Source: a virus. Taken from it: DNA of 48,252 nucleotides. The stretch is from IMG/VR virus record IMGVR_UViG_3300020419_001295, positions 1-48,252 of that record; one strand, given 5' to 3'. Positions 13,578-47,997 of the stretch are shown in pieces (positions within the stretch are counted from its first letter, which is position 1; the number at the start of each line of letters is the position of its first letter). Under the pieces are notes generated by a model. It saw only the letters and a list, made by a program, of their open reading frames with translations. It had not been told where the DNA came from and made no database searches. A program made the translations under genes and the position numbers.

Positions 13578-14120
13578 GTGAAGAAATTTTTTATTATATT
13601 ATCATTCATCGCATTCTTTTGGCCATTGGCCTTAAATGCAGAAACAAATACAGTTACTTCTACAGTAACTGGAACAACAACAGTAGATAAAACTCCACCT
13701 ACTGCATCAGCACCAAATGTCATGATAAACAATCAGGATGTATGTTCTACGGGAACAAGTGCGGCAGTGCAAACACAGGTGCTAGGAATTGCAGGCGGTA
13801 CTACAATTAGAGATTTAAACTGTGAAAGATTGAAATTATCTAGATCGTTATATGGTATGGGCATGAAGGTCGCGGCTGTGTCGTTATTGTGTCAAGATGC
13901 AAGAGTATTTGAGGCAATGGAGATGGCAGGTACACCTTGTCCTTACAAAGGTAAGATTGGTATTGAAGCGGCTAAGGCTTGGGCTGAAAATCCTGAGAGG
14001 CGTCCCGACTACGAGAAATGGTTAAAAGAAAATGATCTTGAAGCATACGAAAAAGAATGGCAAAATAAAGCAACTACTTGGAGTATTGGTATTGGTGCTT
14101 TGTTGTTGCTTTTACTCTAG
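13578..14120 (+). CDS. Exported protein with signal peptide and C-terminal membrane helix (180 aa)
   Basis: The GTG start follows GAGGGCAAAACAA. The first 21 residues are a good signal peptide (MKKFFIILSFIAFFWPLALNA, cleavage after NA). Then come a Thr/Val-rich stretch (NTVTSTVTGTTTVDKTPPT), a cysteine-bearing domain (NNQDVCSTGTSAAVQTQVLG, RDLNCERLKLSRSLYG, SLLCQDARVFEAMEMAG), and a C-terminal hydrophobic end (SIGIGALLLLLL). It may sit in the host envelope or be a virion component. Its end overlaps the next gene by 89 bases in another frame. Function unknown. Confidence 0.65.
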   Translation: MKKFFIILSFIAFFWPLALNAETNTVTSTVTGTTTVDKTPPTASAPNVMINNQDVCSTGTSAAVQTQVLGIAGGTTIRDLNCERLKLSRSLYGMGMKVAAVSLLCQDARVFEAMEMAGTPCPYKGKIGIEAAKAWAENPERRPDYEKWLKENDLEAYEKEWQNKATTWSIGIGALLLLLL

Positions 14121-18130: not shown

Positions 18131-18448
18131 CTATTCTTTTTCTATTTGTATCTGTAAAGGAAAGCCATTAGCTCTAGCTAATTTTGTTGCTTCTAGAGAC
18201 CTTTGTTCAGCTATTTCAAAGCTATATAACCCAACAATAGCAGTGCCATCTTTGTGTATTTTCATTGTTAATTCTTGGGCTGTCTTCTCAGAATGTTTAA
18301 AAACTTGAACTAAGATTTCTACAACAAAGTCCATAGGTGTTGCGTCATCATTAAGGAAGATAACCTTGTACTTACCAGGTTCTTGAACAAAATCCTTTAT
18401 CTGTTCATTTACTTTTATATCTGTATCTAATTCAACTGTTACTGTCAT
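18131..18448 (-). CDS. clpS: ClpS adaptor protein (105 aa)
   Basis: ClpS binds proteins with destabilising N-termini and delivers them to ClpA-ClpP. The core is typical: GKYKVIFLNDDATPMDFVVE (NDD-TPM signature), ILVQVFKHSEKTAQELTMKI, HKDGTAIVGLYSFEIAE and QRSLEATKLARANGFPLQIQ. The N-terminal tail is short, as in other ClpS. The ATG at 18448 follows GGAG by 5 bases. It lies between Hsp20 and heme oxygenase and partners conceptually with the ClpP at 8786. Confidence 0.93.
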   Translation of the reverse strand: MTVTVELDTDIKVNEQIKDFVQEPGKYKVIFLNDDATPMDFVVEILVQVFKHSEKTAQELTMKIHKDGTAIVGLYSFEIAEQRSLEATKLARANGFPLQIQIEKE

Positions 18449-18465
18449 AATCACTCCATAGTGTC

Positions 18466-18499: not shown

Positions 18500-18940
18500 T
18501 TACTCAGCCTCAACAATTTTAATTGTTTTAGGCTTTAGTTCTTCTGGAACTTCTCTTTCTAGATGTAGGTTCAACATACCTTTTTCTAGTTTAGCTGTCT
18601 TTACATCAACATGTTCTGCTAATGTAAACTGTCTGCTAAAGTTACGCCCAGCGATACCTCTGTGAACATAATTCACTTCATCAGCACCTTTAGGTTGAGT
18701 TCCTTCGATTGTAAGAATATTTTTATCCTTTTCAATCTTAAGATTATCCATACCAAAGCCAGCAACTGCGATTGAAATCATAAATTCATCTTCGCTGATC
18801 TTAGCTATATTGTATGGTGGATATCCACCCGATCTATCTGTACTGTTTTCAAATACTCTGTCCATTTCGTCGAACAGGCTTTCGAAGCCAATCATAGATC
18901 TGTGAAAAGTGGGAAGGTTTAGTGTAGTTACTCTTGTCAT
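18500..18940 (-). CDS. Small heat-shock protein, Hsp20/IbpA type (146 aa)
   Basis: The alpha-crystallin domain runs from about residue 38 to 130 (PPYNIAKISEDEFMISIAVA, GFGMDNLKIEKDKNILTIEG, YVHRGIAGRNFSRQFTLAEH, AKLEKGMLNLHLEREVPEEL), followed by a short tail with the KTIKIVE motif resembling the IxI anchor. It holds unfolding proteins in a refoldable state. T4-like marine phages commonly carry it. The start has GGAG (AAGGAGAAAACA). It is in the ClpS operon, under the promoter at 19047-19075. Confidence 0.93.
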   Translation of the reverse strand: MTRVTTLNLPTFHRSMIGFESLFDEMDRVFENSTDRSGGYPPYNIAKISEDEFMISIAVAGFGMDNLKIEKDKNILTIEGTQPKGADEVNYVHRGIAGRNFSRQFTLAEHVDVKTAKLEKGMLNLHLEREVPEELKPKTIKIVEAE

Positions 18941-28059: not shown

Positions 28060-28193
28060 TGAGTTTGGGAATAAGAAAAGTTATTGTCCGTTTAAGAATG
28101 TGGTATGCAGATATTCGTGGCCATCACGGTAAGCGATGGGATTACGAACCTTCTGAACACTACATGGGAATGGGCAAAAAGAAATCAAGATAA
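28059..28193 (+). CDS. Small basic protein (44 aa)
   Basis: Frame MSLGIRKVIVRLRMWYADIR continues with GHHGKRWDYEPSEHYMGMGK and KKSR. Its start overlaps the preceding stop (TAATG) and it converges with hemE, overlapping by 9 bases. Too short for a family assignment. Confidence 0.5.
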   Translation: MSLGIRKVIVRLRMWYADIRGHHGKRWDYEPSEHYMGMGKKKSR

Positions 28194-29159
28194 TCTATTA
28201 CGGACAGTTTCAATAAACAAATGAACATGTTCTTCAGGAGTAGTCTTATCTATTCCATGACCCAAACCGCAAACCCAACCAGTTGTATCCGACTTGTTAA
28301 TATCGTCACAATATTTTTCTATTTCATACATAAACTTGTGCTTAGATAAAAGCATTTTGTTTTCGTCAAAGTTGCCTTGAACAAACCCTTTGTCAAATGT
28401 TTTAAATGCATCTGATATATCTATTTTACTGTCTACGCCTATGCCACCCCAGTCTCCTTCTACTACTTTACCAATGCACTTTCTGGGTAAGTTCTTACTA
28501 TAGTAAGCTGTTTGTGGCATGGCCATTGCCATTAGTAAAGGAGAATACTTTTCATTAAAGAACTTAGCTGACATATTTTGTAATCCACTATCAAAGATCA
28601 TTACAACTTCCGCACCTGCATCTAACTGCATTCTAATATTTCTTACTAGCAAAGGTATTAATATAGTTTTCATATAGTCTAACTTAAATTGATCTGTTGC
28701 TCTTGTATCTCCACAAGCATAATTCATTAAAGTCCATGGGCCTCCAACAAATCCAATTAAACTTTTATCCTTAGGCAACATGGCTCTAGTTGTTAGCACT
28801 GCTTCTCTTTGAAATGATAAAAAAGATAATGCGTCAGAAATATTACTATGTTCTTCTGCGTTATCTATTGTAAGATTATGTCCAAACTTGGGACCAGGAT
28901 TAAATTCTAAAGGCAATCCTAATCCTTCTAACGGCCAAAGTATATCTGAAAACAAAATTGAAACATCGTAATCAAATTCTCTTATTGGTCCTAATGCTAC
29001 TTCTCCTGCTAAGTCAGGTTGCTTACACAACTCTTCAAATGTGTAAGTTTCTTTTAATTTTCTATAATGAGAATGATATCTTCCTGCTTGTCGCATAAAC
29101 CATATTGGTGGGACATTCTGTGCAACTCTATTACGTGCATTAATAAATTTTTTATTCAC
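28185..29159 (-). CDS. hemE: Uroporphyrinogen decarboxylase (324 aa)
   Basis: HemE removes four carboxylates from uroporphyrinogen III to give coproporphyrinogen III. The invariant arginines lie in PPIWFMRQAGRYHSHYRKLK, the catalytic Asp in SILFSDILWPLEGLG, and the C-terminal His in GWVCGLGHGIDKTTPEEHV. FVGGPWTLMNYACGD is also typical. It is slightly shorter than bacterial HemE (about 340-355 residues). The GTG start overlaps the hemC stop as GTGA. A porphyrin gene in a phage is unusual; see the heme oxygenase and bilin reductase at 16821-18087. Confidence 0.94.
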   Translation of the reverse strand: MNKKFINARNRVAQNVPPIWFMRQAGRYHSHYRKLKETYTFEELCKQPDLAGEVALGPIREFDYDVSILFSDILWPLEGLGLPLEFNPGPKFGHNLTIDNAEEHSNISDALSFLSFQREAVLTTRAMLPKDKSLIGFVGGPWTLMNYACGDTRATDQFKLDYMKTILIPLLVRNIRMQLDAGAEVVMIFDSGLQNMSAKFFNEKYSPLLMAMAMPQTAYYSKNLPRKCIGKVVEGDWGGIGVDSKIDISDAFKTFDKGFVQGNFDENKMLLSKHKFMYEIEKYCDDINKSDTTGWVCGLGHGIDKTTPEEHVHLFIETVRNRLS

Positions 29160-29986
29160 TTTATATTTTTTCCTACTTCCTCACCTAATAACTTATACTC
29201 TAATAACTTACTGGTTGACTCGTAATGTTTTCCTGTATTATAATTTATCGCTTTTAAATTTATACAATCTCCAACTAGACTTGAAACAGCACCTACGGCA
29301 GTATGGCAATCGCCATCTATTTCCTGTAACATAGCTCTTTCAGCCATTACAGAGTAGTATGTATTCCAGTGATTATTTAGTTTAGCTACATCACTATGAG
29401 AAGAACCTTTTCTAGTTTGAACTGCTATAACTCCTTGTCCAACACAAGGAAGCATTTTACTGAAAGGAAATATTTTTTTGATCTTATGTTCTAAGCCTAA
29501 GGCTTCAAGCCCTGCTACTGCTAGGATAATAGCATCATATTGGCCTTCTTCTAACTTCTTAATCCTAGTATCTATATTGCCTCTTATAGGCATGACATCA
29601 AACTCTACATTAAAATTTTCTTTGAGTTGTGCAACACGTCTAGGTGATCCTGTACCTACTTTCGCATGCGGAAACAGTGTCCCTATGTAACAATCTCTAG
29701 GATCGTTTCTTTTTAATACAGCGGAAATTTCTAAACTATCATCCATTACTGCCGGTAAGTCCTTAAAAGAATGCACTGCTACATCTATCTTTTTATCTAC
29801 CAATTGTTGTTCGATAGCAGAAACAAACACACCTTTGCCTCCAATATCTTGGATGCTCTTGTTTTCGAATATGTCGCCGTCTGTTTTAATTTTTACAAGG
29901 TTGGTTTGAAAACTTTTGAAACACTGTGCTTCTACTCTCTTAGCATAATCTATTGCTAGTTTACTACCTCTCACGCCAATGTTCAT
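29156..29986 (-). CDS. hemC: Hydroxymethylbilane synthase / porphobilinogen deaminase (276 aa)
   Basis: HemC joins four porphobilinogens into hydroxymethylbilane. The sequence has the N-terminal IGVRGSKLAIDYAKRVEAQ, the catalytic Asp in DVAVHSFKDLPAVM, the Arg-rich substrate loops GTGSPRRVAQLKENF and PIRGNIDTRIKKLEEG, and the dipyrromethane cofactor Cys in EIDGDCHTAVGAV. It is shorter than most (about 310), lacking part of the C-terminus. The ATG at 29986 follows GGAGG by 5 bases; an upstream TTG is unlikely. It lies 10 bases after the tmRNA terminator with no promoter of its own. Confidence 0.93.
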   Translation of the reverse strand: MNIGVRGSKLAIDYAKRVEAQCFKSFQTNLVKIKTDGDIFENKSIQDIGGKGVFVSAIEQQLVDKKIDVAVHSFKDLPAVMDDSLEISAVLKRNDPRDCYIGTLFPHAKVGTGSPRRVAQLKENFNVEFDVMPIRGNIDTRIKKLEEGQYDAIILAVAGLEALGLEHKIKKIFPFSKMLPCVGQGVIAVQTRKGSSHSDVAKLNNHWNTYYSVMAERAMLQEIDGDCHTAVGAVSSLVGDCINLKAINYNTGKHYESTSKLLEYKLLGEEVGKNIK

Positions 29987-29996
29987 ATGAGCCTCC

Positions 29997-30020
29997 AAAA
30001 AAATGCAACTTTTCTGTTGC
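29997..30020 (-). terminator. Intrinsic terminator after the tmRNA gene
   Basis: The minus strand reads GCAAC, loop AGAAAA, GTTGC, then A and seven Ts (30003-29997). The T-run ends directly before the GGAGG site of hemC. The tmRNA transcript should mostly stop here, with read-through feeding hemC and hemE. Confidence 0.85.
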
Positions 30021-38163: not shown

Positions 38164-38766
38164 TTATTCTATATCAAAATCCCAAACTAAACATCTGCGA
38201 TTATCTTCTGTGGGGTAAGATCCGTGCCAAACTCTATCATCCATTACTACTACCTTACCTGGAGTAGGATGGAACTTATGATCATAAGAATATCCGTTAG
38301 GATCTTGTAAAACTGTAGTCAGACAACCGTTGAACGGATTCTTTTTTGTTGGGGTAAGCTCGTCGAAAAACATTACACTTGAAGCAAAACGTTTGTTGGA
38401 TTGATCAGTTTTTCTTGTAGAATGAAAATGCCCTGCTTGCCAACCACCTGGAAAGTAATTTATAGTCCAGGCCTTGTGACCTTGTTCATTTTTGCCTCTA
38501 TCATTAATTTTATTAATAGGTAAGTCAATTTGTTTAAAAATATCAAGAAACCATTTCTTATATTCTAATCTTTCATCTTCCCATTCTGAATCTTCAATAG
38601 GTTTCTGTATGCCATTTACTGTGCATGATCCTTTACTAATATCTTGATTAGTAAAATCAAACAACTTTTCTAGGTCTTGGTAAAAGGGATATTCAGCAGT
38701 AACAATCCAATGTTGATTAGGAACTGCGTATAACTCTATATTATTATTCTTTCTTAGTAGGCTCAT
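38164..38766 (-). CDS. 2OG-Fe(II) oxygenase-like protein, second copy (200 aa)
   Basis: Iron ligands are probable in INYFPGGWQAGHFHSTRKTD and GKVVVMDDRVWHGSYPTEDN, with the Arg in DNRRCLVWDFD as a 2-oxoglutarate anchor. It resembles prolyl-hydroxylase-like phage proteins, with substrate unknown. The start at 38766 overlaps the end of the Nfu-like gene. Distinct from the copy at 20120. Confidence 0.75.
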   Translation of the reverse strand: MSLLRKNNNIELYAVPNQHWIVTAEYPFYQDLEKLFDFTNQDISKGSCTVNGIQKPIEDSEWEDERLEYKKWFLDIFKQIDLPINKINDRGKNEQGHKAWTINYFPGGWQAGHFHSTRKTDQSNKRFASSVMFFDELTPTKKNPFNGCLTTVLQDPNGYSYDHKFHPTPGKVVVMDDRVWHGSYPTEDNRRCLVWDFDIE

Positions 38767-39103
38767 CTGAATTCCAACTTTCATACTGATCAAAGTTTTC
38801 CATAAACGGATCCATTCTATAGTATGGATCTACCGTTGAGTTTGGATCGTCATCTGCTGATATAGTATGTACTTCAGGAACATAATGTTTTACCATATTT
38901 TCCACACCCATTTTGAGAGTGATTGTGCTACTTGCACACCCGCTACATGCACCTCCCAAAATAAGTTGTAAGTGTCCGTCTTTGTAACTTACAAAGTCAA
39001 TTACTCCACCGTGGCTGTCTACTGCTGGTTTGACATAATCTTCTAATATTTTTTTGATTTGAGCAATGATTTCTTCATCTGTTCTATCTTCTGCTACGGC
39101 CAT
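38744..39103 (-). CDS. Nfu-type Fe-S cluster scaffold (119 aa)
   Basis: The NifU C-terminal domain is clear: EIIAQIKKILEDYVKPAVDS, HGGVIDFVSYKDGHLQLILG, GACSGCASSTITLKMGVENM. The CxxC motif binds a 4Fe-4S cluster. An acidic tail follows (PFMENFDQYESWNSDEP). In a phage it could mature Fe-S proteins such as ferredoxin used by the bilin reductase, or serve ribonucleotide synthesis; this is inference. The ATG at 39103 follows GGAG. Confidence 0.9.
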   Translation of the reverse strand: MAVAEDRTDEEIIAQIKKILEDYVKPAVDSHGGVIDFVSYKDGHLQLILGGACSGCASSTITLKMGVENMVKHYVPEVHTISADDDPNSTVDPYYRMDPFMENFDQYESWNSDEPTKKE

Positions 39104-39121
39104 AATTTTTCTCCAACTGTT

Positions 39122-39150
39122 ATTATATATTAAAAATAAAAGTTTGTCAA
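39122..39150 (-). promoter_or_regulatory. Consensus sigma70 promoter TTGACA-17-TATAAT upstream of the Nfu-like gene
   Basis: Both hexamers are exact on the minus strand (39150-39145 and 39127-39122) with a 17-base spacer. It separates the Nfu gene from the virion block upstream. Confidence 0.85.
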
Positions 39151-39155
39151 CCGGT

Positions 39156-39485
39156 TTATGATAGTGCTGATTTAGCCGCTCTGCTAGCCATTTTGTCGAC
39201 AGTTTTATCTTCTGGTTTGGTTTGTGGAGCATCTCCACCTGCTAAAACTACACCGTTTTCATCAAAACTGTCGACAAGTTCTTGTATTCTTGAGTCATTG
39301 TTATATGCCTTTACAAAACTTTTTTGGTCAAAGTGTTCACTGCCTACATTATCGAGAAACATGTTCAAGTCATCCCAACTTATTCTAGTTGCGCCTTGTT
39401 GTAATTTAAGATGTAGTATTTGGGCTAGGCCGTCTTTTGTGTTTGAAGTTGTAGTGTTTGCTTCAGCTTCACCTATTTGATAGCC
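39156..39485 (-). CDS. Frame reached by possible -1 frameshift (109 aa extension) or separate small protein
   Basis: An open frame runs from 39485 to a stop at 39156 with no ATG/GTG/TTG until the TTG/ATG near 39374-39368. Its wording is protein-like throughout (NTTTSNTKDGLAQILHLKLQ, QGATRISWDDLNMFLDNVGS, DKTVDKMASRAAKSALS). It begins at a run of nine As at the end of the upstream gene, where a -1 shift at AAAAAAG would join the frames. The minimal form is 70 residues from the ATG at 39368. A homopolymer error is another explanation. Confidence 0.5.
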   Translation of the reverse strand, partial: GYQIGEAEANTTTSNTKDGLAQILHLKLQQGATRISWDDLNMFLDNVGSEHFDQKSFVKAYNNDSRIQELVDSFDENGVVLAGGDAPQTKPEDKTVDKMASRAAKSALS

Positions 39486-40351
39486 TTTTTTTTTGATCCT
39501 GCTAATAGCAAGCCTAATCTTTTGCTTAATTCAACGCTTTCGCGTTTGGCCCTGTCCGCCGGTTCATCACCTCCTGCTGAGGCATCTGATGTGGCAAACT
39601 CATCGCCTTCTGGGTCATCTGCTTCCATTCCTTCATCGTCGTCGACGGTTGGCTCCATGTCCATATCGTCGTCCGCAGGAATTTCATCGCCCATGGTAGC
39701 TGGTGCGCCTTCGCCTGTCAAAATGGCTACGCCACTTGTTAAGGCGTCTCTGGTGCTTTCCAATGACGTGAACAAACTTTCGAGTGCAGGTTTAACACTG
39801 CCGATAAATTGTTCGGACTTGTCAACACCCATTTCATCTCTAATCTTATCGCCTATTTCTAACATAGATTCAGTTTGCATTTCTGCTGTATCTTCCATCC
39901 AGCCTGTTACCCTGTCTACCATGTCCTTTGCGGCCATAGTAAGTGCGGCTTCTTCTTCAGCACCTTCTGTTATTGAAACTCCAGGTCCTGCTTTGTATCT
40001 TTTGTTGCCCTTTACAAGTTCTTGGTATGCTTTTGTGTTAGCCTTCTTGTCTGCTTTTGAAACTATCATTGGCTCATCTTTTTTATCTGTATCGTCTTCC
40101 TCACGCTCTGATATAGCTGTATTAAGGACATCTAGGAACATCTTGTTTTTTTGGTAATCATTGCTTGAGTGTACAGCATCAAAACTTTCGTTAGTTTCAA
40201 TTTGAGATAATTTAGTTCTAATTTTGTTACGTGCATCTTCTAACTGTTCAAGTGTGAACTTAGATACATCAATTCTAGTTCCAAATTGCTTGGATAGATT
40301 CTCGTTCAGGTCATCTGATGAGACTCTTTTTGAAAATTCTTTTAATAGCAT
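39473..40351 (-). CDS. Virion-associated/prohead-like protein (292 aa)
   Basis: N-terminus MLLKEFSKRVSSDDLNENLS, then a helical domain (EQLEDARNKIRTKLSQIETN), a Lys-rich linker, a second helical domain (MVDRVTGWMEDTAEMQTESM) and an acidic stretch (DEIPADDDMDMEPTVDDDEG). The layout (acidic, helical, LxE motif at the start) resembles scaffold or internal proteins of T4-like heads. It ends GSKKKAIK over a run of nine As, which may allow -1 frameshifting into the frame at 39156. TAAATA lies at 40383-40388. Confidence 0.65.
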   Translation of the reverse strand: MLLKEFSKRVSSDDLNENLSKQFGTRIDVSKFTLEQLEDARNKIRTKLSQIETNESFDAVHSSNDYQKNKMFLDVLNTAISEREEDDTDKKDEPMIVSKADKKANTKAYQELVKGNKRYKAGPGVSITEGAEEEAALTMAAKDMVDRVTGWMEDTAEMQTESMLEIGDKIRDEMGVDKSEQFIGSVKPALESLFTSLESTRDALTSGVAILTGEGAPATMGDEIPADDDMDMEPTVDDDEGMEADDPEGDEFATSDASAGGDEPADRAKRESVELSKRLGLLLAGSKKKAIK

Positions 40352-40381
40352 GTTCTATTCCTTTTATTACAACTCTTACTT

Positions 40382-40810
40382 TTATTTATCAAATATATAT
40401 CTTTCTATGGCGGCCAATGCGGTCCAGGCTTCTTGTGTAGCTATATCAAATTGTACCTCTGCAGACTCTCTACGTTCTTCGGTTTCCCCTGTTTTCATGC
40501 TTCTTTTGGCATAAAGAGCATCCATATAATATTTTGCTACCTTATCATCCATTTTTTGCAGTATTTTTAGGTCAAACGGTACCTTTTCCACAGTCATTTT
40601 TGCAACAGCCAATGCAGTTGCTTTAGCAAAAGTTGTACATATATGTTTGTTTGTAGTTAAATTAAATAGTCTATAACCGTTATGATGCTTTCGTATAATG
40701 ATATTCTTTACACGTATGCTATTACCTTTTTGATATGGTATTGCTACCCTTATCAAATTAGATTCTATTATTTCTTCTAATTGTTCTGTTAGATACTTGT
40801 CAAAACTCAT
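40382..40810 (-). CDS. Conserved phage protein of unknown function (142 aa)
   Basis: The centre VKNIIIRKHHNGYRLFNLTT and HICTTFAKATALAVAKMTVE, with the preceding amphipathic helix, recurs in small proteins of marine T4-like phages. It lies in the virion block, coupled to its neighbour by an 11-base overlap. It may be a virion protein. Function unknown. Confidence 0.6.
   Translation of the reverse strand: MSFDKYLTEQLEEIIESNLIRVAIPYQKGNSIRVKNIIIRKHHNGYRLFNLTTNKHICTTFAKATALAVAKMTVEKVPFDLKILQKMDDKVAKYYMDALYAKRSMKTGETEERRESAEVQFDIATQEAWTALAAIERYIFDK
40383..40388 (-). promoter_or_regulatory. TAAATA late-like box upstream of the prohead-like gene
   Basis: GATAAATAAAAGTAAG on the minus strand, 32 bases before the ATG at 40351, with AAAAGGAAT as ribosome site. 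It fits a late virion gene. Confidence 0.45.
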
Positions 40811-41003
40811 TCACTTTAACCATTACAGTGTTGCCTTGCATTACTTTACTTACTAATGCTTTGCGTATAAGATTCTCTAATATGGATCTATCTCTTTCAG
40901 AAAAACTGTCAAATGGTCTAAGTTCTGTGCATTTATCAAGCACATTTTGTTCTTCGTTACTTCTTTGTATATGGAAGTCTTGTAGTAATTCGGTTATCCT
41001 CAT
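40800..41003 (-). CDS. Small protein with capsid-targeting-like start (67 aa)
   Basis: N-terminus MRITELLQDFHIQ has the ITE motif seen at T4 capsid-targeting sequences. The rest is helical and charged (RPFDSFSERDRSILENLIRK). Its start overlaps the preceding stop (ATGA). Function unknown. Confidence 0.55.
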   Translation of the reverse strand: MRITELLQDFHIQRSNEEQNVLDKCTELRPFDSFSERDRSILENLIRKALVSKVMQGNTVMVKVNEF

Positions 41004-41368
41004 TTAGGTGCACCTTGAGCCATTGCCTGAATTGCTCCTGCTATCATAGGATCCTTTTTCTGTAGTACAGTTTTAGGAGCCATTTTGTTTTTTGGATCAG
41101 CTATAGTAACTTCTTTACCTTGAACTTTATCAACTACTGTATCCTTACCGCCTATAGATAATTTTTGTCCTGGTTTAAGAACTTGATTAGCTAGGTTGGC
41201 ATTAGATTGTTGTGTAGCCTGTTGTGCTTTCTTTTGTAGTGCTGTATTAGGTGCTGGAGCTGTTTTACCTGCTCCCATTTGTTGTCCAACTTTACTGGAA
41301 CCTGTTGTTCCTGTTGTACCTTGTGTTTGTCCACCATACTCTACAATATTAAATTCATTGAATCTCAT
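41000..41368 (-). CDS. Gln/Thr-rich protein with capsid-targeting-like start (122 aa)
   Basis: Starts MRFNEFNIVEYGG, then a Gly/Thr/Gln-rich low-complexity part (GTTGTTGSSKVGQQMGAG, AQQATQQSNANLANQV) and a small beta domain (LKPGQKLSIGGKDTVVDKVQ, KEVTIADPKNKM). It begins at the stop of the basic protein upstream. Possibly internal virion protein. Confidence 0.55.
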   Translation of the reverse strand: MRFNEFNIVEYGGQTQGTTGTTGSSKVGQQMGAGKTAPAPNTALQKKAQQATQQSNANLANQVLKPGQKLSIGGKDTVVDKVQGKEVTIADPKNKMAPKTVLQKKDPMIAGAIQAMAQGAPK

Positions 41369-41688
41369 TACTTGATCCTTTTACGCTTAGCCGTGCTTCT
41401 TTTTGTTGGTTTAAGTCGTGTTTTATTTAATCTTGTTAATCTTCTAGTGTTAGGACTCATTCTTTTTGTAAATCTACTTTTAATTTTTATTAATGGTGAA
41501 CGTCTTGCTTTTGCTTTTTTAATAGCTATCCTACTTGAAACTCTAATAGGTGCTGAACATGTTGTAGGTTTTGCAACGATTCTACCTTTTTTCTGTCCAC
41601 TGGTGCATCTATACTTACGTACAACTTTTCCTTTGTTCCGACCAAAAATCTGTACTGCACCTTCAGGTATTATCTCTGATATAATCAT
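41368..41688 (-). CDS. Highly basic protein, tandem paralogue 1 (106 aa)
   Basis: Begins MIISEIIPEGAVQIFGRNKG then KVVRKYRCTSGQKKGRIVAK, PTTCSAPIRVSSRIAIKKAK and an Arg/Lys tail. It shares the RKYRC-x-GRIVA-C block with the next gene. The high positive charge and two conserved cysteines suggest a DNA-binding or packaging protein, and the start resembles a capsid-targeting sequence. Confidence 0.68.
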   Translation of the reverse strand: MIISEIIPEGAVQIFGRNKGKVVRKYRCTSGQKKGRIVAKPTTCSAPIRVSSRIAIKKAKARRSPLIKIKSRFTKRMSPNTRRLTRLNKTRLKPTKRSTAKRKRIK

Positions 41689-41969
41689 TTTGCTCTCTTG
41701 TTCAATCTTCTCAATGCAATAGAAGCCGGGTTTGTTCTTTTTGTCCTACGAGCTTTTCTTGCCATTCTTGCACCTAGCCTAGCTCTAGTTTTTTTCATAG
41801 CCATCCTGGCTTTCATGTTAGGTGCGGCGAAACACTGTGCCATTGATGCCACAATTCTTCCTTTGCGTCTACCAGCGGCGCACCTATATTTTCTAACAAG
41901 TTTTTTACCTCTGCGTCCCCAGATCTGTTTTTCACTTAGGTCAGAAGTTATGATCTCTGTTACTAGCAT
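41685..41969 (-). CDS. Highly basic protein, tandem paralogue 2 (94 aa)
   Basis: Begins MLVTEIITSDLSEKQIWGRR, then KKLVRKYRCAAGRRKGRIVA and SMAQCFAAPNMKARMAMKKT, ending with an Arg-rich tail. Same domain as its neighbour, so the pair arose by duplication. ATGA overlap couples them. TAAATA lies 5 bases before the ATG and there is no ribosome site. Confidence 0.68.
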   Translation of the reverse strand: MLVTEIITSDLSEKQIWGRRGKKLVRKYRCAAGRRKGRIVASMAQCFAAPNMKARMAMKKTRARLGARMARKARRTKRTNPASIALRRLNKRAK

Positions 41970-41974
41970 AACAG

Positions 41975-41980
41975 TATTTA
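41975..41980 (-). promoter_or_regulatory. TAAATA box 5 bases before an ATG
   Basis: TAAATA, CTGTT, then the ATG at 41969 on the minus strand, with no ribosome site. It would give a leaderless late message for the two basic proteins. Confidence 0.5.
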
Positions 41981-41993
41981 TGTTTTTCTATTC

Positions 41994-42230
41994 TTAGTTA
42001 AAGGAAATTAAGAGAACAACTATAGTGGAAAGTAATCCAGCTACTATAGTACCTGTGGCACCTAGAACTACTTTCATCATTGCTTTGTTCCCGTTGGTGA
42101 TATCAGAGTGGATATGCTCCACTTTCATCTCAATCTTCTCAAGACGTGCTTCTAAATTGATATATCTCTGCTCACACAGATCAACATGTGCTTCTAGACT
42201 TTCACGCTCTAATTTTGTGGCTCTTGCCAT
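41994..42230 (-). CDS. Coiled-coil protein with C-terminal membrane helix (78 aa)
   Basis: The start at 42230 (MARATKLERESLEAHVDLCE) follows GGAGAGATAATATT. A coiled coil (INLEARLEKIEMKVEHIHSD) is followed by one membrane helix (VVLGATGTIVAGLLSTIVVL). The layout resembles phage XhlA/holin-associated proteins; role in lysis is inferred only. Confidence 0.6.
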   Translation of the reverse strand: MARATKLERESLEAHVDLCEQRYINLEARLEKIEMKVEHIHSDITNGNKAMMKVVLGATGTIVAGLLSTIVVLLISFN

Positions 42231-42290
42231 AATATTATCTCTCCATTCCATTCTCTCTCGAGGAAGGGGCCTTGCATACATTGCCTGATA

Positions 42291-42692
42291 TTATGTGTCG
42301 TCTGCCTTAAATGTTATGTTTTTTGCCTTTTTGTCTGCTGTTCTAAATACGTTATTATTTATCTTAATCGTCTCATCTAAAGCATTTATCACAGGCACTA
42401 AATCAAAGTCTTCTTCGAAAGTTTTTATGTCTCCGAAGGTTCGTCCTTCATCAACCGTTAATGCTAGGCGCCATACGTTGTGGCTACCTTTATAGTCAGT
42501 ACCAAACCCTAGTTCACGTAATTTTTTTTCAGATAATTTTTCAATGACTGGCGAATTTTCATAACCATAGTTACTTCTCAAACATAAAGTCTGAAAGAAG
42601 GTCATAAAGTTTGCCTGCTGATGATTTAATTTTTGATCAGCACTTCTATAGCTTTTTGTTTCAGTTATATCTATAAGGGTATAGGCAATCAT
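42291..42692 (-). CDS. Conserved phage protein of unknown function (133 aa)
   Basis: A compact alpha/beta protein (MIAYTLIDITETKSYRSADQ, QANFMTFFQTLCLRSNYGYE, HNVWRLALTVDEGRTFGDIK). It has no ribosome site, but TAAATA lies 5 bases before the ATG. A terminator at 42712-42748 precedes it. Confidence 0.6.
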   Translation of the reverse strand: MIAYTLIDITETKSYRSADQKLNHQQANFMTFFQTLCLRSNYGYENSPVIEKLSEKKLRELGFGTDYKGSHNVWRLALTVDEGRTFGDIKTFEEDFDLVPVINALDETIKINNNVFRTADKKAKNITFKADDT

Positions 42693-42697
42693 ACTTC

Positions 42698-42703
42698 TAT
42701 TTA
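42698..42703 (-). promoter_or_regulatory. TAAATA box 5 bases before an ATG
   Basis: GGTAAATA, GAAGT, then the ATG at 42692 on the minus strand. It lies just beyond the upstream gene's terminator, so it must start a new transcript, which supports the box being a promoter. Confidence 0.55.
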
Positions 42704-42711
42704 CCGGTCAT

Positions 42712-42748
42712 AAAAAAAGGGCTCAAACAATGTGAATGAGCCCTTTAA
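42712..42748 (-). terminator. Intrinsic terminator
   Basis: AAAGGGCTCA and TGAGCCCTTT form a 10-bp stem; on the minus strand it is followed by a T-run (TTTTTTTATG). It ends transcription of the 114-residue gene and could act in both directions. Confidence 0.85.
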
Positions 42749-42772
42749 TTTAACTTATTTTAATTACTATAA

Positions 42773-43117
42773 TTATACAGCAATTACAAGTGTTTTAGCA
42801 TTTACAGTAGCGCCTGATAAGTCAACTGAGTCAACTGTACCTAATGCTCTGATTGCCGCTTGTAGTGTAGCTACAACAACTGAATCTTCACCTTCTGTCA
42901 TGAAAGTTTGTTCTGTGTTTGAGTTACCTAATGGGCCTGCCATGATGATTGTTGCAGTATTCATGATTGTATCTAATACTGCCTTTTGTGCACCAAGTGG
43001 TCCTGCTGAACCATTAATTGCATTAATGTAATCGATTGTAAACAACTGAACTGGTTTACCAATATTTGCGTGTGGAACCTTAGTTGCTGTTGGATTTACT
43101 TTTGTTATTCCGGCCAT
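42773..43117 (-). CDS. Conserved small virion-like protein (114 aa)
   Basis: A compact, polar protein (KVNPTATKVPHANIGKPVQL, NGSAGPLGAQKAVLDTIMNT, DSVVVATLQAAIRALGTVDS) with its own late-like promoter, a leader hairpin and a terminator, so it is transcribed alone. That layout suggests abundant expression, as for a structural or decoration protein. Strong ribosome site TAGGAGAAAAAA. Confidence 0.6.
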   Translation of the reverse strand: MAGITKVNPTATKVPHANIGKPVQLFTIDYINAINGSAGPLGAQKAVLDTIMNTATIIMAGPLGNSNTEQTFMTEGEDSVVVATLQAAIRALGTVDSVDLSGATVNAKTLVIAV

Positions 43118-43149
43118 TTTTTTTCTCCTATTTTCTCTTAAAATGACAC

Positions 43150-43183
43150 CTTCGTTACTCTACGAAGTTGTTATATGTATTTA
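43150..43183 (-). promoter_or_regulatory. TAAATA box and leader hairpin of the 114-residue gene
   Basis: TAAATA lies at 43183-43178 on the minus strand. CTTCGT (43167) and ACGAAG (43155) then pair around a 6-base loop, about 5 bases beyond the predicted start near 43172. The hairpin could protect the 5' end. Confidence 0.55.
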
Positions 43184-43200
43184 CCAATTTAGGAAAAATA

Positions 43201-44076
43201 TTAGGTATTAGGCGTCTTTTTAGCTCGATTTTCTAATGTTCTTAGCATTTGTACGAAACCAGGCCCTGCTTTTACTATATTATCTATCATTGTAATAGCA
43301 GGCAAATATGCTTGTACCATCTGTGGAGGAATTGATTTGCCGTCTTTTGCAAGTTCTAAAAACTTCTTTGTCATCATTAAATTCTTAGAACCAACTAGAT
43401 ATCTGTAACCTGCTAGGTCTTTACCTGTTACTTCTATGTCTGGCATACTAATCTTTGGTTCTGGATCCGTAACCTTATATGTTTCTAAGTCACGTTGAGC
43501 AGATAGTTGTTCAAGATATTTAATAATATCACTTGATCTTAGTTTGGCTCTAGATGCTAATAATAATCTAGTAACCGTCTTTTTCTTTTCAAACGTAGGA
43601 AGTCTATTAAAGCTGAATAAGTTTCGTCTGGTTGCTTTATAATCAGAGTTTGTTATTCCTAATGTACTTTCTGCCCTTATAAGGAATTGTTCGTCGGCTG
43701 AGCTTGGAGCAAATCCTCTTGACATGTTACTCACATATCTGTTGAAAGCCATCACTGGAAACTGTGTTTTCTCACGTTTCTTTCTTGCATTACCTGGATC
43801 CTTTAACTTGTCTTGAGCGTTCTGATCTCCTACAACAAAGTAAACAAAGTTGTACAAGTCCGTGCCACTTATTCTAAAGTGTTTATAGCTATCGTATCCT
43901 GATGTGCTTTTTGCATAACCATGAGCATAAGGTGCCGTGGTAGGAAAACGTCTTAACGTTTCAAGAATCAACATGGTCAAGTAAGCTCTTTCGCAACAAT
44001 CTGTATATGTCAGAGCTTTAAGTCCTGACGAGTTACGAGTCATTCTTGCCTCATGAAGTTCTTGTAGGAATTCCAT
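43201..44076 (-). CDS. Virion-block protein of unknown function (291 aa)
   Basis: Starts MEFLQELHEARMTRNSSG, with a capsid-targeting-like LQE. The body is helical and basic (YDSYKHFRISGTDLYNFVYF, KKREKTQFPVMAFNRYVSNM, KTVTRLLLASRAKLRSSDII). It begins at the last base of the 142-residue gene. Function unknown. Confidence 0.6.
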   Translation of the reverse strand: MEFLQELHEARMTRNSSGLKALTYTDCCERAYLTMLILETLRRFPTTAPYAHGYAKSTSGYDSYKHFRISGTDLYNFVYFVVGDQNAQDKLKDPGNARKKREKTQFPVMAFNRYVSNMSRGFAPSSADEQFLIRAESTLGITNSDYKATRRNLFSFNRLPTFEKKKTVTRLLLASRAKLRSSDIIKYLEQLSAQRDLETYKVTDPEPKISMPDIEVTGKDLAGYRYLVGSKNLMMTKKFLELAKDGKSIPPQMVQAYLPAITMIDNIVKAGPGFVQMLRTLENRAKKTPNT

Positions 44077-44504
44077 TATGCTTTTGCTACTGCTTTAGCT
44101 AGGTTATTAATACCGCGATCTTGTTGGTCTGGATCTGGTGCAGACTTTGTAATGTCTACGTTGCCTGTTTTAATAAAATCAAATATAGCTTGTGCTTTTT
44201 CTTTGTCCATTCCTCTAGTTCTTGCAATAACACTATCAAGTGTATCTTCACGACCTGAATGTATTAATGCATTAGAAAAATGCAATGCATCTAAAAATTG
44301 TTGATCATCTTTCCAAATTAAATCACTGCTTCTTGGACTTAATGCCGCCGCAATCTGTTGACCCATTTTTGCTAATTTTCTTTCACTGTCAGACATATCG
44401 TGAGCACTGCCGCCTTTGACTGGAATAGCTTCTGCTTGTACATAACCCAGATCAGCTTTGATTGGTTGGAATGCTTCGCTGTCCATCATTTCTGTCATCT
44501 TCAT
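44076..44504 (-). CDS. Virion-block protein of unknown function (142 aa)
   Basis: Starts MKMTEMMDSEAFQPIKAD, again a short MxxTE-type start. It is a helical soluble protein (SDSERKLAKMGQQIAAALSP, RTRGMDKEKAQAIFDFIKTG). It follows the 805-residue gene by 9 bases with a ribosome site in the gap (AGGAGAAAACT). Confidence 0.6.
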   Translation of the reverse strand: MKMTEMMDSEAFQPIKADLGYVQAEAIPVKGGSAHDMSDSERKLAKMGQQIAAALSPRSSDLIWKDDQQFLDALHFSNALIHSGREDTLDSVIARTRGMDKEKAQAIFDFIKTGNVDITKSAPDPDQQDRGINNLAKAVAKA

Positions 44505-44513
44505 AGTTTTCTC

Positions 44514-46931
44514 CTATCGTTGTCCGGCTCTATTGGCCGCTGTGAACCCTGCTCTATTTACCAGTTTCATGTCTCCGCCAGGGTGTGCTAAGACATATCC
44601 TTCTCCTCCAGGCTGGCCTGCTGTAGTTGCCTTTACAGAACCTCCCTGTGAATCTAATTGTTTTATAATATTATTTTTTACCTTCATTATACCACTTACT
44701 ACTTCCCATAAGCTAGAAAATGCTTTCATATTTTGTTTTACATATTTTGCAATCTTATCTTTTTTAGGTGCACTAATCTTTTCATGGTTCATTAACCAAC
44801 TCATAAAGTCTCTGCCTAGTTTATCTAGTGTTCCCCTGTCTACACTTTGGTTAACATAATTGTATAGTATGTTATCAAAGTCCGATAATTTCATTGACTG
44901 TAATTTTGCTTTATCAAGCAAACTATCTATATCAGCACTATCTTGTTTTATAATATTTGCAAGTCTTTCTACTTCTTCGTTAGGTACTTCTGGTGGTGTT
45001 TCTACGCTCATTGGTGGAACAACTAACAGTTCATTACCTTGAAACATTCCTAAATCTTTTAAACCTGATTCAGATCCATCTAAATCAACCATTCTATGTA
45101 CAACTACTGCTGTCTTGCTTTTAGCAATACGTTTTCCTAAGTCACTTGCTATATCTACTGCATACTCTACACCATTTGGATTAGGTTTGAATACAAAGTT
45201 TTTATCAATAACTTTAGGTGTGTTGTAATAAAGCAAATCCCCTTTGAAAAATCCTATATGATCTGTTGGAACTGCTCTTTCAAATACAGAAAATATTTCT
45301 GCCATGCTGTCAGCAAATTTTATACGGCCTGGATCATCTTTGAACTTTCCACCACTACGACCGAGGAGCTCTGCCTTAAGGTCATCTGGACTTTTTGCTC
45401 TACCAACTCCGCCTTTTTTAACGAAGCCACCTTTGTCTGTAAGTATAAACTCTCCATCTTCATCGCGACCAAAAATGACTGCGGGAGATCCATCCCATTT
45501 GATTGTAACATCTTTATGTCCTCCACTTGCCATGTTCCTTAAACTTGCCAATGCTCTCATGGCTCCTTTTGAACCTTCGAAGAAAACCAAATCTTCTATG
45601 TGTTGTATTCTAGCACCTTCATTAATGCTTTCTTTTTTAATACTTTCTGTTGAAGAACTATCGTAGCCTTGCATTTTAAAGCCGGCTTTATCATATTCTC
45701 CTCTATTGGCATTATAAACATTGATTGGTACTGTTTGTCGTTCAGTGCCAAACTTTTTTTGTCTTACAATTACAACATTCTTAGGTTGTTCCTTAGTATT
45801 ACTATCGTCTTTTAGAGTATATACATTACCATCTTTGTCTTTAATTTGTTTTTTCTTTTTAGGATCAACTTCTTTCCATCCTTTTTTCGTGTACATGTCT
45901 AGATCACTTCTAGCAATTTTTTTCTTCTTATATTTGCCTTTGACATTGCCATGTACAGTAACTACATCGTCTGTTGCTCTGTCCCAAGTTCTTTTTGCTA
46001 GATCTTTCACTTGTCCTATTGTAGTTTTTCCACCACCTGCATCTGTGTATGCTTTCTTAGCCGCCGCATATCCATCCTTAGATTTATATCCAGCCATAAA
46101 GCCCCCCTTGGCTGTTCGTAGTGCTCCTGCAACACCTTTACCTACGTTTCCAATACCTCTCATTACTGAACTAGGACCTAGTTCGTCTAGTTCTCTTTCT
46201 GCTAACATCATTCCTGATCTAATACTTTTAGACTCTGGCATAGGCAATCCTTGATTTTCAAAGTTTGCTCTTACATCTGCCGTGAGTTGTTCATAGTCTG
46301 GACGACCTTTAATTGCTTTGTTAATAGTTTCTACACTATCAAGGTTAGCTCTGTTGGCTCCTGGACCAATTAATTTCTTTGCTATCTCATTAGGATCAGT
46401 TGTAATAACTTCCTTTGTTTCTCTATCTACTAGCCCTTTTGTAGGTGACCACATCATACCTTGTGCTTTTGCGATGCTAGCCAAAAATATCATTCTATGC
46501 GATCCTTTGTAAGGTGTACCATCGCCCATACCTTTAAGTGCAAACTTCATCCATTCTGGATTGCCAAACATCAAGTCTGTTTGTACAAAGCCATTAGCTG
46601 GATTGCCGTTAATTGGTGTTTTCAAATGTACATTGGTACCTGACTTTGCTACCCATTGTCTTGAATTATCATTAGGGTGATTCTTTTGTTGCCATGCAAC
46701 TAATTTCTGGAACACTTCTTCTTTACTGTGTTGACTTTGGTCAACTGCAACATCTATATCACCACTAGAACTTCTAATGCCCGTGCTACCTAGCTTCATC
46801 TCTTTGTGATTGAGCCCTGTAATCTTTTCTACCCAATCTAGAGTAGTATCGATATCGCCTCTAGCAATACGTTGTGTAACAGGTTTACCTTCGGCATCCT
46901 TAAAAATATTCCCACCTTCTTTAAGTATCAT
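44514..46931 (-). CDS. Nucleotidyltransferase plus ligase-like two-domain protein (805 aa)
   Basis: The N-terminal part has a nucleotidyltransferase-type motif, GSTGIRSSSGDIDVAVDQSQ (Gly-Ser then Asp-x-Asp). A basic linker with a glycine-rich and Lys-rich stretch follows (about residues 280-410). The C-terminal part has KDVTIKWDGSPAVIFGRDED, which resembles the KxDG adenylation motif of ligases, then HIGFFKGDLLYYNTPKVIDK and TAVVVHRMVDLDGSESGLKD. Start MILKEGGNIFKDAEGK shows an LKE capsid-targeting-like motif. Activity is not established. Confidence 0.65.
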   Translation of the reverse strand: MILKEGGNIFKDAEGKPVTQRIARGDIDTTLDWVEKITGLNHKEMKLGSTGIRSSSGDIDVAVDQSQHSKEEVFQKLVAWQQKNHPNDNSRQWVAKSGTNVHLKTPINGNPANGFVQTDLMFGNPEWMKFALKGMGDGTPYKGSHRMIFLASIAKAQGMMWSPTKGLVDRETKEVITTDPNEIAKKLIGPGANRANLDSVETINKAIKGRPDYEQLTADVRANFENQGLPMPESKSIRSGMMLAERELDELGPSSVMRGIGNVGKGVAGALRTAKGGFMAGYKSKDGYAAAKKAYTDAGGGKTTIGQVKDLAKRTWDRATDDVVTVHGNVKGKYKKKKIARSDLDMYTKKGWKEVDPKKKKQIKDKDGNVYTLKDDSNTKEQPKNVVIVRQKKFGTERQTVPINVYNANRGEYDKAGFKMQGYDSSSTESIKKESINEGARIQHIEDLVFFEGSKGAMRALASLRNMASGGHKDVTIKWDGSPAVIFGRDEDGEFILTDKGGFVKKGGVGRAKSPDDLKAELLGRSGGKFKDDPGRIKFADSMAEIFSVFERAVPTDHIGFFKGDLLYYNTPKVIDKNFVFKPNPNGVEYAVDIASDLGKRIAKSKTAVVVHRMVDLDGSESGLKDLGMFQGNELLVVPPMSVETPPEVPNEEVERLANIIKQDSADIDSLLDKAKLQSMKLSDFDNILYNYVNQSVDRGTLDKLGRDFMSWLMNHEKISAPKKDKIAKYVKQNMKAFSSLWEVVSGIMKVKNNIIKQLDSQGGSVKATTAGQPGGEGYVLAHPGGDMKLVNRAGFTAANRAGQR

Positions 46932-47181
46932 GCTTCTTGCTTTCTTTAATCTTTGTTATACCACGTCTAAACTTCTTAGGATCACCTGTTCTTACACTGT
47001 TGATAAAACGCCTTTCTAACTCCATAGCTTCTTCATCTGAATACTGTTCAGATATCTTTTGGAACAAATTAATAGTGCTTTCTATTAAATTATGCCCTGT
47101 AGTAGCTATAAGGCTTTCCTTATCCTTTGTCCAACTAAGGTTGTTTAGTTCTTGTAATATAGATCTGGTGACTTTTTTCAT
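46921..47181 (-). CDS. Small helical protein with capsid-targeting-like start (86 aa)
   Basis: Begins MKKVTRSILQELNNLSWTKD and continues helical (STINLFQKISEQYSDEEAME, LERRFINSVRTGDPKKFRRG). It overlaps the 805-residue gene by 11 bases in another frame. Ribosome site ATGAGGACAAACTGAC; TAAATA at 47204-47209. Confidence 0.6.
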   Translation of the reverse strand: MKKVTRSILQELNNLSWTKDKESLIATTGHNLIESTINLFQKISEQYSDEEAMELERRFINSVRTGDPKKFRRGITKIKESKKHDT

Positions 47182-47203
47182 GTCAGTTTGTCCTCATATA
47201 ACA

Positions 47204-47227
47204 TATTTAGCTATGAAACGATAAATA
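47204..47227. promoter_or_regulatory. Back-to-back TAAATA boxes for divergent genes
   Basis: TAAATA on the minus strand (47209-47204) points to the virion block, and TAAATA on the plus strand (47222-47227) points to the lipase gene. They are separated by only 12 bases. Both genes have Shine-Dalgarno sequences. Confidence 0.45.
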
Positions 47228-47253
47228 TGTTTAGGTTAAGAAGAAGGTAAATT

Positions 47254-47997
47254 ATGATAGAAAAGTTAAATTTCAAACAAAGATCCTTGCTATTTGCTAA
47301 TTTGTCACGTATAGCATACTATAACACAAAAAAAGCAACAAGTCAAGCGAAAAAGTTAGGCTTTACTACAACAGAATTTTACAATAAAGAAGGTGCTCAA
47401 GCATATCGTTTTATGAACAAAACGGATCTAGTAATAGCTTGTAGAGGCACTGAACCTACTCAATGGAACGATATAAGTGCTGACCTTAAGGCTATACCTG
47501 TGATGGCTGAAACTGTTAGCAGAGTACATAAAGGCTTCAAAGAAGAAGTAGACGAACTATGGCCAATGGTGTGCGAAGACATTGACAGAAAAGTTAACCT
47601 AAAAAAGAAACTTTGGTTTTGCGGACATAGTTTAGGAGCGGCAATGGCAACTATTATGTCAAGCCGAGCCAAACACAATGCTGACTTAAATGATCCTGTA
47701 GAATTGTATACTTATGGTTCACCTAGAGTAGGTTGGAATGCATATTGCAAGAGCCTTAACGTTGAACATCATCGTTGGAGAAACAACAATGATATAGTAA
47801 CAAAGGTACCGTTATGGATAATGGGCTACAGACACCATGGTAACTTACATTACATCACATCAGACTGTAAGATAGGTAAACCAGGATTTAAAGATTGGTG
47901 CAAAGGCATGTGGGCTGGCATTAAAGATAGAAAGTTTGATTCAATAGGCGATCATGATATCCAAGCCTATCACGATAATATAGTTAAAGCTCTCTAG
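47254..47997 (+). CDS. Class 3 lipase-like alpha/beta-hydrolase (247 aa)
   Basis: The nucleophile elbow GHSLGAAMATIMSSRA gives Ser in GHSLG; VIACRGTEPTQWNDISADLK supplies the oxyanion-side strand; the acid and His are likely in HRWRNNNDIVTKVPLW and YRHHGNLHYI. LYTYGSPRVGWNAYCK is typical of the class 3 lipase fold. No signal peptide. In phage it could open the host membrane at lysis or after injection; inference. Ribosome site AAGAAGG. Confidence 0.85.
   Translation: MIEKLNFKQRSLLFANLSRIAYYNTKKATSQAKKLGFTTTEFYNKEGAQAYRFMNKTDLVIACRGTEPTQWNDISADLKAIPVMAETVSRVHKGFKEEVDELWPMVCEDIDRKVNLKKKLWFCGHSLGAAMATIMSSRAKHNADLNDPVELYTYGSPRVGWNAYCKSLNVEHHRWRNNNDIVTKVPLWIMGYRHHGNLHYITSDCKIGKPGFKDWCKGMWAGIKDRKFDSIGDHDIQAYHDNIVKAL

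Follow-up and report, generated by a model that had tools for sequence, protein, structure and literature searches.

Capsid targeting in phage T4 is among the closest described systems to the locus considered here. The T4 head protease gp21 cleaves after L/I-x-E. The internal proteins (IPs) carry prefixes of 10-19 residues in which the early residues mainly drive targeting, and residues 8 and 10 cutting (PMC9026906). The T4 internal proteins are reported to be basic and ejected (PMC9026906), and Alt is cut after ITE-6 (PMC5694885). Both IPII and IPIII begin MKTYQEFIAEA. Here, we describe a block of 13 genes on the minus strand (positions 39473-47181) of a 48,252-nt stretch from an uncultured marine phage (IMG/VR record IMGVR_UViG_3300020419_001295, positions 1 to 48,252; hereafter the window), which probably is a T4-type locus of capsid-targeted virion cargo in a T4-related, jumbo-type marine phage. 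Like the IPI-IPIII/Alt system of T4, it combines short prefixes ending in L/I-x-E, predicted basic mature proteins, a gp21-type protease (encoded in a relative) and several unrelated cargoes. Unlike in T4, different, mutually mostly unrelated cargo families stand in one long locus, V also occurs in the motif, cutting is only predicted, and one product combines a polymerase-beta-like and a DUF6267 part in a polyprotein with a predicted internal site.

Three further systems bear comparison. Homologs of p291, the N-terminal part of p805, p86 and p292 (block proteins are named by their length in residues) lie colinear beside primase and helicase genes in Atu_ph07 (coding sequences, CDS, 31-76) and PA5oct (gp245-gp259), where, however, the nucleotidyltransferase is unfused and prefix-free and the ligase-like protein has a gene of its own. 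The jumbo phages phiKZ and SPN3US are likewise reported to load many head proteins and to trim propeptides after Glu, but the phiKZ motif is S/A-x-E and the phiKZ/SPN3US protease is of S80-type, another family. RlaP systems resemble the block in that a polymerase-beta-like enzyme adjoins or is fused to a ligase-like protein, whereas the block domain has no Pfam match and is apparently carried in the virion. No published description of this locus, nor of DUF6267, was found in the incomplete literature collection searched. Relatives of one block protein are encoded in 529 IMG/VR stretches, and the phage group is thus widespread.

Orthologs were drawn from 95 IMG/VR loci and from G001, a 262-kb IMG/VR contig of a relative with a syntenic block; exact duplicates were removed and matches without a placeable start were dropped. 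Outside the block, genes were called with a basic purpose-made program, and some of their starts may be wrong. In the window, this program placed the starts of p291 and p142b further in; the upstream starts were retained because the orthologs conserve them.

A probable two-part signal at the starts of block proteins

A preliminary description of this DNA had proposed that nine neighbouring and unrelated proteins share a hydrophobic-x-Glu start that would act as a T4-like capsid-targeting signal, such as the prohead protease cuts after the Glu in T4, and that the block would be a locus of cargo proteins injected with the DNA. All nine N-termini are present on the minus strand at the positions given for them. 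They represent nine of the block's 13 genes, and the strict form L/I-x-E is found at only six of the nine Glu residues, MRFNE, MLVTE and MKMTE having F, V and M, respectively. The carriers are indeed unrelated to each other except for p94 and p106, which are paralogs (all-against-all profile search, E 0.01). Two further block proteins, p142a (MSFDKYLTE) and p133 (MIAYTLIDITE), have [LI]xE near the start, unconserved in orthologs, while p95 and p114 have no such signal.

When scored as [LIVMF]xE ending at residue 5-11, the motif is concentrated in the block (11/13 against 5/67 of the genes called elsewhere in the window, p=2.8e-8) and likewise in G001, where 10 of the 12 blind block gene calls carry it compared with 47/288 others (p=1.5e-6). 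The T4 rule, [LI]xE ending at residue 5-20, gives 10/13 in the block and 6/67 elsewhere in the window. A control stretch in G001, residues 21-36, shows no enrichment (1/12 versus 42/288). Nor is the motif equally frequent in other small proteins: among G001 proteins of at most 150 residues it occurs in 10/10 block families against 22/116 others, with the ten families having a placeable G001 start taken and p95, p114 and p142b left out.

Alignment of the orthologs resolves these starts into two layers, namely a variable hydrophobic-x-[E/D] start and then an [L/I/V]xE that hardly varies, lies in most cases at a depth of 9 to 17 residues and abuts the conserved body. Judged from sequence, this two-part layout matches that of the T4 capsid targeting sequences. 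Residue 5 is variable: it is Glu in 19/45 and Asp in 16/45 p106 orthologs, Glu in 34/42 and Asp in 8/42 p94 orthologs, and Glu in 36/51 and Asp in 6/51 p292 orthologs. The second site, by comparison, is [ILV]7 with E9 in all 45 distinct p106 orthologs, E13 in 42/42 with [LI]11 in 41/42 for p94, [LI]7, E9 and A10 in 42/42 for p291, and [LI]15 in 51/51 with E17 in 50/51 for p292. As Glu5 is unconserved or elsewhere whereas the later site is kept, we rejected residue 5 as the general cut position for these four proteins; it fits p805 (MILKE/GGN, the slash marking the predicted cut here and below), in which LxE5 is found in 17/17. In p86, L9 and E11 are present in 42/42 distinct orthologs. The preliminary reading of the block is largely right in its signal and cargo locus, with the cut site probably misplaced for most members and not every member qualifying.

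The middle residue of the xE motif is of 7 kinds in p106 and 10 kinds in p94, and always Asn in p292; at the Glu of the site, GAA and GAG both occur in five of six families. In p292, p291 and p86 flanking residues are conserved as well, and the motif alone thus proves less there; for p86 its conservation could have a structural reason. Altogether, a T4-type L/I-x-E within about 5-20 residues and before the body, with a minority having V, is found in p106, p94, p291, p292, p805 and p86. No conserved second site is seen in p67, p142b and p122; residue 5 of p67 is E in 28 of 41 distinct orthologs, D in 9, Q in 3 and S in 1. Separately, residues 127-131 of p292 (window 39959-39973) form a possible second site, an [LIV]xE/G column in 45/51 distinct orthologs that mostly has V (L or I in 18/51).

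Prefix-free relatives, charge boundary and head protease

Prefix-free homologs reveal a removable prefix in p805 and in p94/p106, among the six signal families. Where the window reads MILKE/GGNIF at the start of p805, the homologs of its N-terminal part begin MGGAAF (Phosso gp447), MGGRAF (Atu_ph07 AUZ94877) and MSGNAF (PA5oct gp253); upstream of these, there is no in-frame start in Phosso or PA5oct and there are two TTG codons in Atu_ph07. In the marine loci, [LIV]xE abuts [GS]GN in all 74 with a placeable start (80 have a match), the prefixes being 4 to 7 residues long. Similarly, gp12 of Salicola phage SCTP-2 corresponds to the p94/p106 body and starts MAKLIYGRSG where the window has LSE/KQIWGRRG, with a stop two codons upstream. 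The prefix-less relatives begin at the predicted cut or at most 2 residues off.

In p106 and p94 (isoelectric point, pI, 12; Lys plus Arg about 36%), the predicted cut coincides with a charge boundary. Acidic residues number 2 to 4 in the predicted prefix, and the remainder holds none in 35/45 p106 and 34/42 p94 orthologs, one in 8 of either family, and two in 2 of p106 and 0 of p94, so that the density of acidic residues falls from 0.25 to <0.003 across the cut. One locus, L003, entered both counts with identical figures, and the two entries are probably one gene.

G001 encodes a protease of Pfam family S77, that of T4 gp21 (E 2.2e-26); it is the only one of 12 relatives searched to do so, the other 11 being shorter fragments. 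A gp21-type protease is also present in PA5oct, Phosso and Atu_ph07, as in T4. Beside the G001 protease lies a scaffold-like protein with 19 [LI]xE in 366 residues (5.2 per 100 versus an average of 0.99), the densest among G001 proteins of at least 150 residues. The G001 capsid protein has [LI]xE at positions 6, 18 and 41 only, none later, and its LAE41 aligns with LTE65 of T4 gp23, the propeptide of which comprises 65 residues (PMC9026906). As a separate observation, the window encodes a ClpP-like protease (8786-9370, minus strand) whose best PHROG matches are head maturation protease families and which is not of the T4-type S77, as well as a ClpS adaptor (18131-18454) and an Hsp20 (18500-18940), both on the minus strand.

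Profiles from the marine families recover the colinear clusters of the cultured phages: p292 matches PA5oct gp247 (5.8e-15) and Phosso gp458, p291 matches Atu_ph07 AUZ94876 (4e-38) and Phosso gp448 (1.7e-33), the N-terminal part of p805 matches Phosso gp447, Atu_ph07 AUZ94877 and PA5oct gp253 (2.7e-10), and p86 matches all three phages. Weak but colinear matches link p67 to Phosso gp455 (0.04), p142a to PA5oct gp248 (0.03) and p133 to PA5oct gp250. A profile search found no significant p94 or p106 match in the PA5oct and Atu_ph07 clusters. For p291, no PDB fold match was found at E <=0.001; in BFVD there are four at this threshold, the best being its own Atu_ph07 homolog.

Of the 15 PA5oct genes from gp259 to gp245, 11 bear a note of detection by electrospray ionization tandem mass spectrometry (ESI-MS/MS), gp247 and gp253 among them; the list of detected proteins includes metabolic enzymes, so that detection does not establish a structural role. 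Counted from the record, and in agreement with the paper's gp70 helicase-primase, the Atu_ph07 homologs correspond to CDS 64, 65 and 68. They fall within CDS 31-76, a range that accounts for 29 proteins detected in virions, not necessarily these three (PMC6102473). Starts with [LI]xE occur in 28/49 proteins of the Atu_ph07 cluster versus 163/759 others and in 7/17 of the Phosso block versus 102/619. The pattern M-x-h-x-[ED]-h (h, hydrophobic), which was defined in the enrichment analysis of the window and G001 and tried on PA5oct alongside plain [LI]xE, is found at the start of 11/93 detected PA5oct proteins and of 9/271 others (p=0.0037). Also within the Atu_ph07 virion-protein cluster (L120, 43318-49507), eight consecutive genes of 759-804 bases look like tandem paralogs by length alone.

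A predicted polyprotein of two putative enzymes

The predicted model of p805 has a mean predicted local distance difference test (pLDDT) score of 66 and two better-modelled parts. Residues 10-201 resemble DNA polymerases beta, lambda and mu, both by Foldseek (best 7m43_A, E 9e-4) and by VIA (Z 9.7, root-mean-square deviation 3.8, 162 aligned residues), where all 50 listed rows are such polymerases. Since VIA often gives top Z values of 7-8 even where there is no true match, this lends moderate support to a polymerase-beta fold, as a statement about the fold of a predicted model. D58, D60 and D119 are invariant in 16 sequences, and we take them to be the three catalytic carboxylates of family X nucleotidyltransferases. 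At E values up to 5, the domain matches none of the Pfam families, and hence no curated RlaP model.

The C-terminal part is Pfam DUF6267 (E=7.3e-33). Invariant in 12 sequences are K49-W-D-G, E348-G and K360, motifs that are presumably ATP-dependent-ligase-like. Comparison of DUF6267 with the ligase-like neighbours of Atu_ph07, Phosso and PA5oct gives a weak hhalign match (probability 4%, E 0.01) around KxDG. Sequence searches of solved structures returned no usable match for p805, the ligase-like neighbours or the DUF6267 profile; a match of the p805 C-terminal part alone to a chain named Ika8 (2.5e-8) was set aside, as no single stretch passed.

At the junction of linker and DUF6267, [LIV]xE is present in 16/17 distinct fused forms, two or three residues ahead of the Arg in ARIxHxED. 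In many relatives, the polymerase-beta-like and DUF6267 parts are encoded separately, and both genes carry prefixes. Among 21 distinct stand-alone DUF6267 genes, [LIV]xE lies within 8 residues of the same point in 20, 16 of which start M-x-h-x-[EDQ]-h, for example MKFNEFNNILRE/GARIDHAED. Of the 90 loci with a DUF6267 match in this survey, 22 were excluded, 12 because of a long N-terminal stretch and 10 because they lack the landmark. Among cultured relatives, DUF6267 has a prefix in Melnitz-3 (MINFSKYITE/D) and C48C1 (MMLDFKNFITE/Q) and none in P-TIM40, S-WAM1, S-SZBM1 and S-H9-1. Judging by these junctions, p805 is probably a polyprotein cleaved between the polymerase-beta-like part and DUF6267.

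Beyond these, three loci of cyanophages and a methylophage (L182, L184, L185) have DUF6267 neighbours with T4-like starts, MRFRQFIIE/AAA and MQGFKTFLSE/AKV, as well as MKKFSELTSE/L and MLSFKQFVSE/V on basic-looking proteins adjoining DUF6267; this cargo type may thus reach the Kyanoviridae.

Competing explanations and surroundings of the block

A shared T4-type signal and a cargo locus are supported by the enrichment and conservation of the motif, the gain and loss of the prefix, the acidic boundary, the gp21-type protease in a relative and the PA5oct homologs detected by mass spectrometry. In the mechanism that we propose, the variable head-piece M-x-hydrophobic-x-E/D-hydrophobic would dock the protein on the prohead core, and a gp21-type prohead protease would cut after the [L/I/V]xE that ends the targeting sequence. 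The mature proteins would remain in the head. They would comprise an acidic virion protein, a helical one, the polyprotein and the polycationic p94 and p106, both of which could bind packaged DNA. A second cut of the polyprotein would free the polymerase-beta-like nucleotidyltransferase and the ligase-like DUF6267 protein, and the cargo would probably be delivered with the DNA, the enzymes perhaps mending RNA or DNA ends hit by host defences.

Several observations weigh against this interpretation. These phages are known here from genes alone, and their cuts are predicted ones. Four of the 13 block genes have no conserved signal, three more have only a residue-5 or a poorly aligned site, and some sites have V where the strict T4 specificity is for L/I. 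PA5oct proteins detected by mass spectrometry show no enrichment of plain [LI]xE (19/93 versus 68/271), and the Atu_ph07 cluster shows none of M-x-h-x-[ED]-h (3/49 versus 35/759). PA5oct gp253 is found in virions although prefix-free, so that the prefix is not required there. Finally, no gp21 match was found in the 48-kb window, which is a fragment.

The same N-termini could be docking peptides for the core or scaffold that are never cut, i.e. targeting without processing, as Asp at position 10 of the T4 IPIII signal stops cutting while targeting still works (PMC9026906); residue 5 is often Asp in the block orthologs, and p67 has a residue-5 site only. Yet the second [LIV]xE is far better kept than Glu5, with the middle residue free in p94 and p106, prefix-free relatives start at or beside it, and an internal [LIV]xE is maintained between the two p805 domains, which makes this explanation improbable. 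Still harder to sustain is an origin of the starts by shared ancestry, or by chance amphipathic N-terminal helices in small proteins, with no delivery role. The paralogy of p94 and p106 and a loose [LI]xE near the start of 59/288 other G001 proteins would agree with it, whereas the enrichment holds against size-matched proteins, profiles (E 0.01) find no inter-family match besides p94/p106, and fused and stand-alone DUF6267 have [LIV]xE at the same point; we consider it very improbable. More weight attaches to the view that these proteins belong to the head or tail structure and are cut at maturation yet retained rather than injected, since the PHROG and PA5oct annotations give only structural or virion protein, and p292 and p114 look structural. 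However, the basic p94 and p106, with their acid-free bodies, and the nucleic-acid enzymes resemble the T4 internal proteins, reported as basic and ejected (PMC9026906), and a purely structural role appears unlikely, if by no means negligible.

As to the role of the cargo, we tentatively suggest, as a possibility that we would not yet favour outright, that widespread marine T4-like jumbo phages inject a head-loaded repair kit, made as a polyprotein that their head protease splits, along with protamine-like proteins that shed their only acidic residues with the tag, and thereby mend RNA or DNA ends that host defence breaks at entry. RNA repair by the p805 parts is a lead, with repair of DNA gaps as its rival: the polymerase-beta-like and DUF6267 pair might act on gaps of the injected DNA instead of on cleaved RNA. 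The best fold matches of the p805 N-domain are indeed DNA polymerases. On the other side, the RlaP enzymes that jumbo phages pair with RNA ligases are described as serving RNA repair (PMC7824862), and the gene adjoining the nucleotidyltransferase matches Pfam RNA_ligase below the cut-off in Atu_ph07 (0.002) and Phosso (0.085), although the nucleotidyltransferase domain itself matches no Pfam family. DNA gap repair thus seems a possible but rather doubtful alternative. If the cargo interpretation holds, the two-part signal, made more precise by comparing orthologs that have the prefix with those that lack it, would provide a sequence rule for head-delivered proteins of uncultured phages, head proteolysis would extend from tag trimming to the splitting of polyprotein enzymes, and repair enzymes would appear to enter with the DNA. 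New here are the corrected cut sites, for which there is evolutionary support, as well as the charge boundary and a two-enzyme polyprotein that is probably cleaved.

Table 1. Genes and gene parts of the block, in window coordinates; a slash marks a predicted cut.
Feature	Coordinates	Strand	N-terminus or motif	Remarks
p86, 86 aa	46921..47181	-	MKKVTRSILQE/L	predicted prefix 47149-47181; phrog_11854 virion structural protein; homologs PA5oct gp259, Phosso gp444, Atu_ph07 AUZ94880
p805, 805 aa	44514..46931	-	MILKE	predicted polyprotein: prefix (46917-46931), polymerase-beta-like domain, linker, DUF6267
Polymerase-beta-like nucleotidyltransferase domain, p805 residues 10-201	46329..46904	-	D58, D60, D119	Foldseek, VIA
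Predicted internal cut of p805	45618..45626	-	INE(438)/GAR	[LIV]xE at linker/DUF6267 border
DUF6267 part of p805	44517..45617	-	KWDG, then EG and K motifs	DUF6267 E=7.3e-33
p142b, 142 aa	44076..44504	-	MKMTE	7 distinct orthologs: E5 in 5, D5 in 2; no conserved second site
p291, 291 aa	43201..44076	-	MEFLQELHE/A	predicted prefix 44050-44076; basic, pI 9.7; homologs AUZ94876, Phosso gp448
p114	42773..43117	-		no signal; homolog of SCTP-2 gp14, hmmsearch 1.2e-8 (small SCTP-2 set)
p133	42291..42692	-	MIAYTLIDITE	Glu11 unconserved, 26/47
p95	41994..42281	-		no signal
p94	41685..41969	-	MLVTEIITSDLSE/K	predicted prefix 41931-41969; acid-free body of pI 12; SCTP-2 gp12 corresponds to the body alone
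p106	41368..41688	-	MIISEIIPE/G	predicted prefix 41662-41688; acid-free body of pI 12; p94 paralog
p122	41000..41368	-	MRFNEFNIVE/Y	tentative prefix 41339-41368; low-complexity, fast-evolving; I[VA]E/Y common to window and locus L016; 10 distinct orthologs, poorly aligned
p67	40800..41003	-	MRITE/L	Glu5 only; Alt-like site if cut
p142a	40382..40810	-	MSFDKYLTE	signal unconserved; SCTP-2 gp9 1.6e-7; PA5oct gp248 weak (0.03), colinear
p292	39473..40351	-	MLLKEFSKRVSSDDLNE/N	predicted prefix 40301-40351; acidic virion protein; phrog_14154 virion structural; PA5oct gp247 5.8e-15

The block is adjoined by a class 3 lipase gene on the opposite strand (Lipase_3, 3e-21; 47254-47997, plus strand), with a gene of similar size and place in G001 (46947-47708), and by a gene for a NifU-like domain protein of iron-sulphur scaffold type (7.1e-23; 38744-39238, minus strand). 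Elsewhere in the window, positions 14032-16209 (plus strand) encode a 725-residue protein whose start is hydrophobic and which matches nothing in Pfam or PHROG, and genes of the haem/tetrapyrrole pathway are found at 28185-29998 (minus strand), where a uroporphyrinogen decarboxylase (URO-D 9.9e-60) adjoins a porphobilinogen deaminase (Porphobil_deam 6.7e-63).

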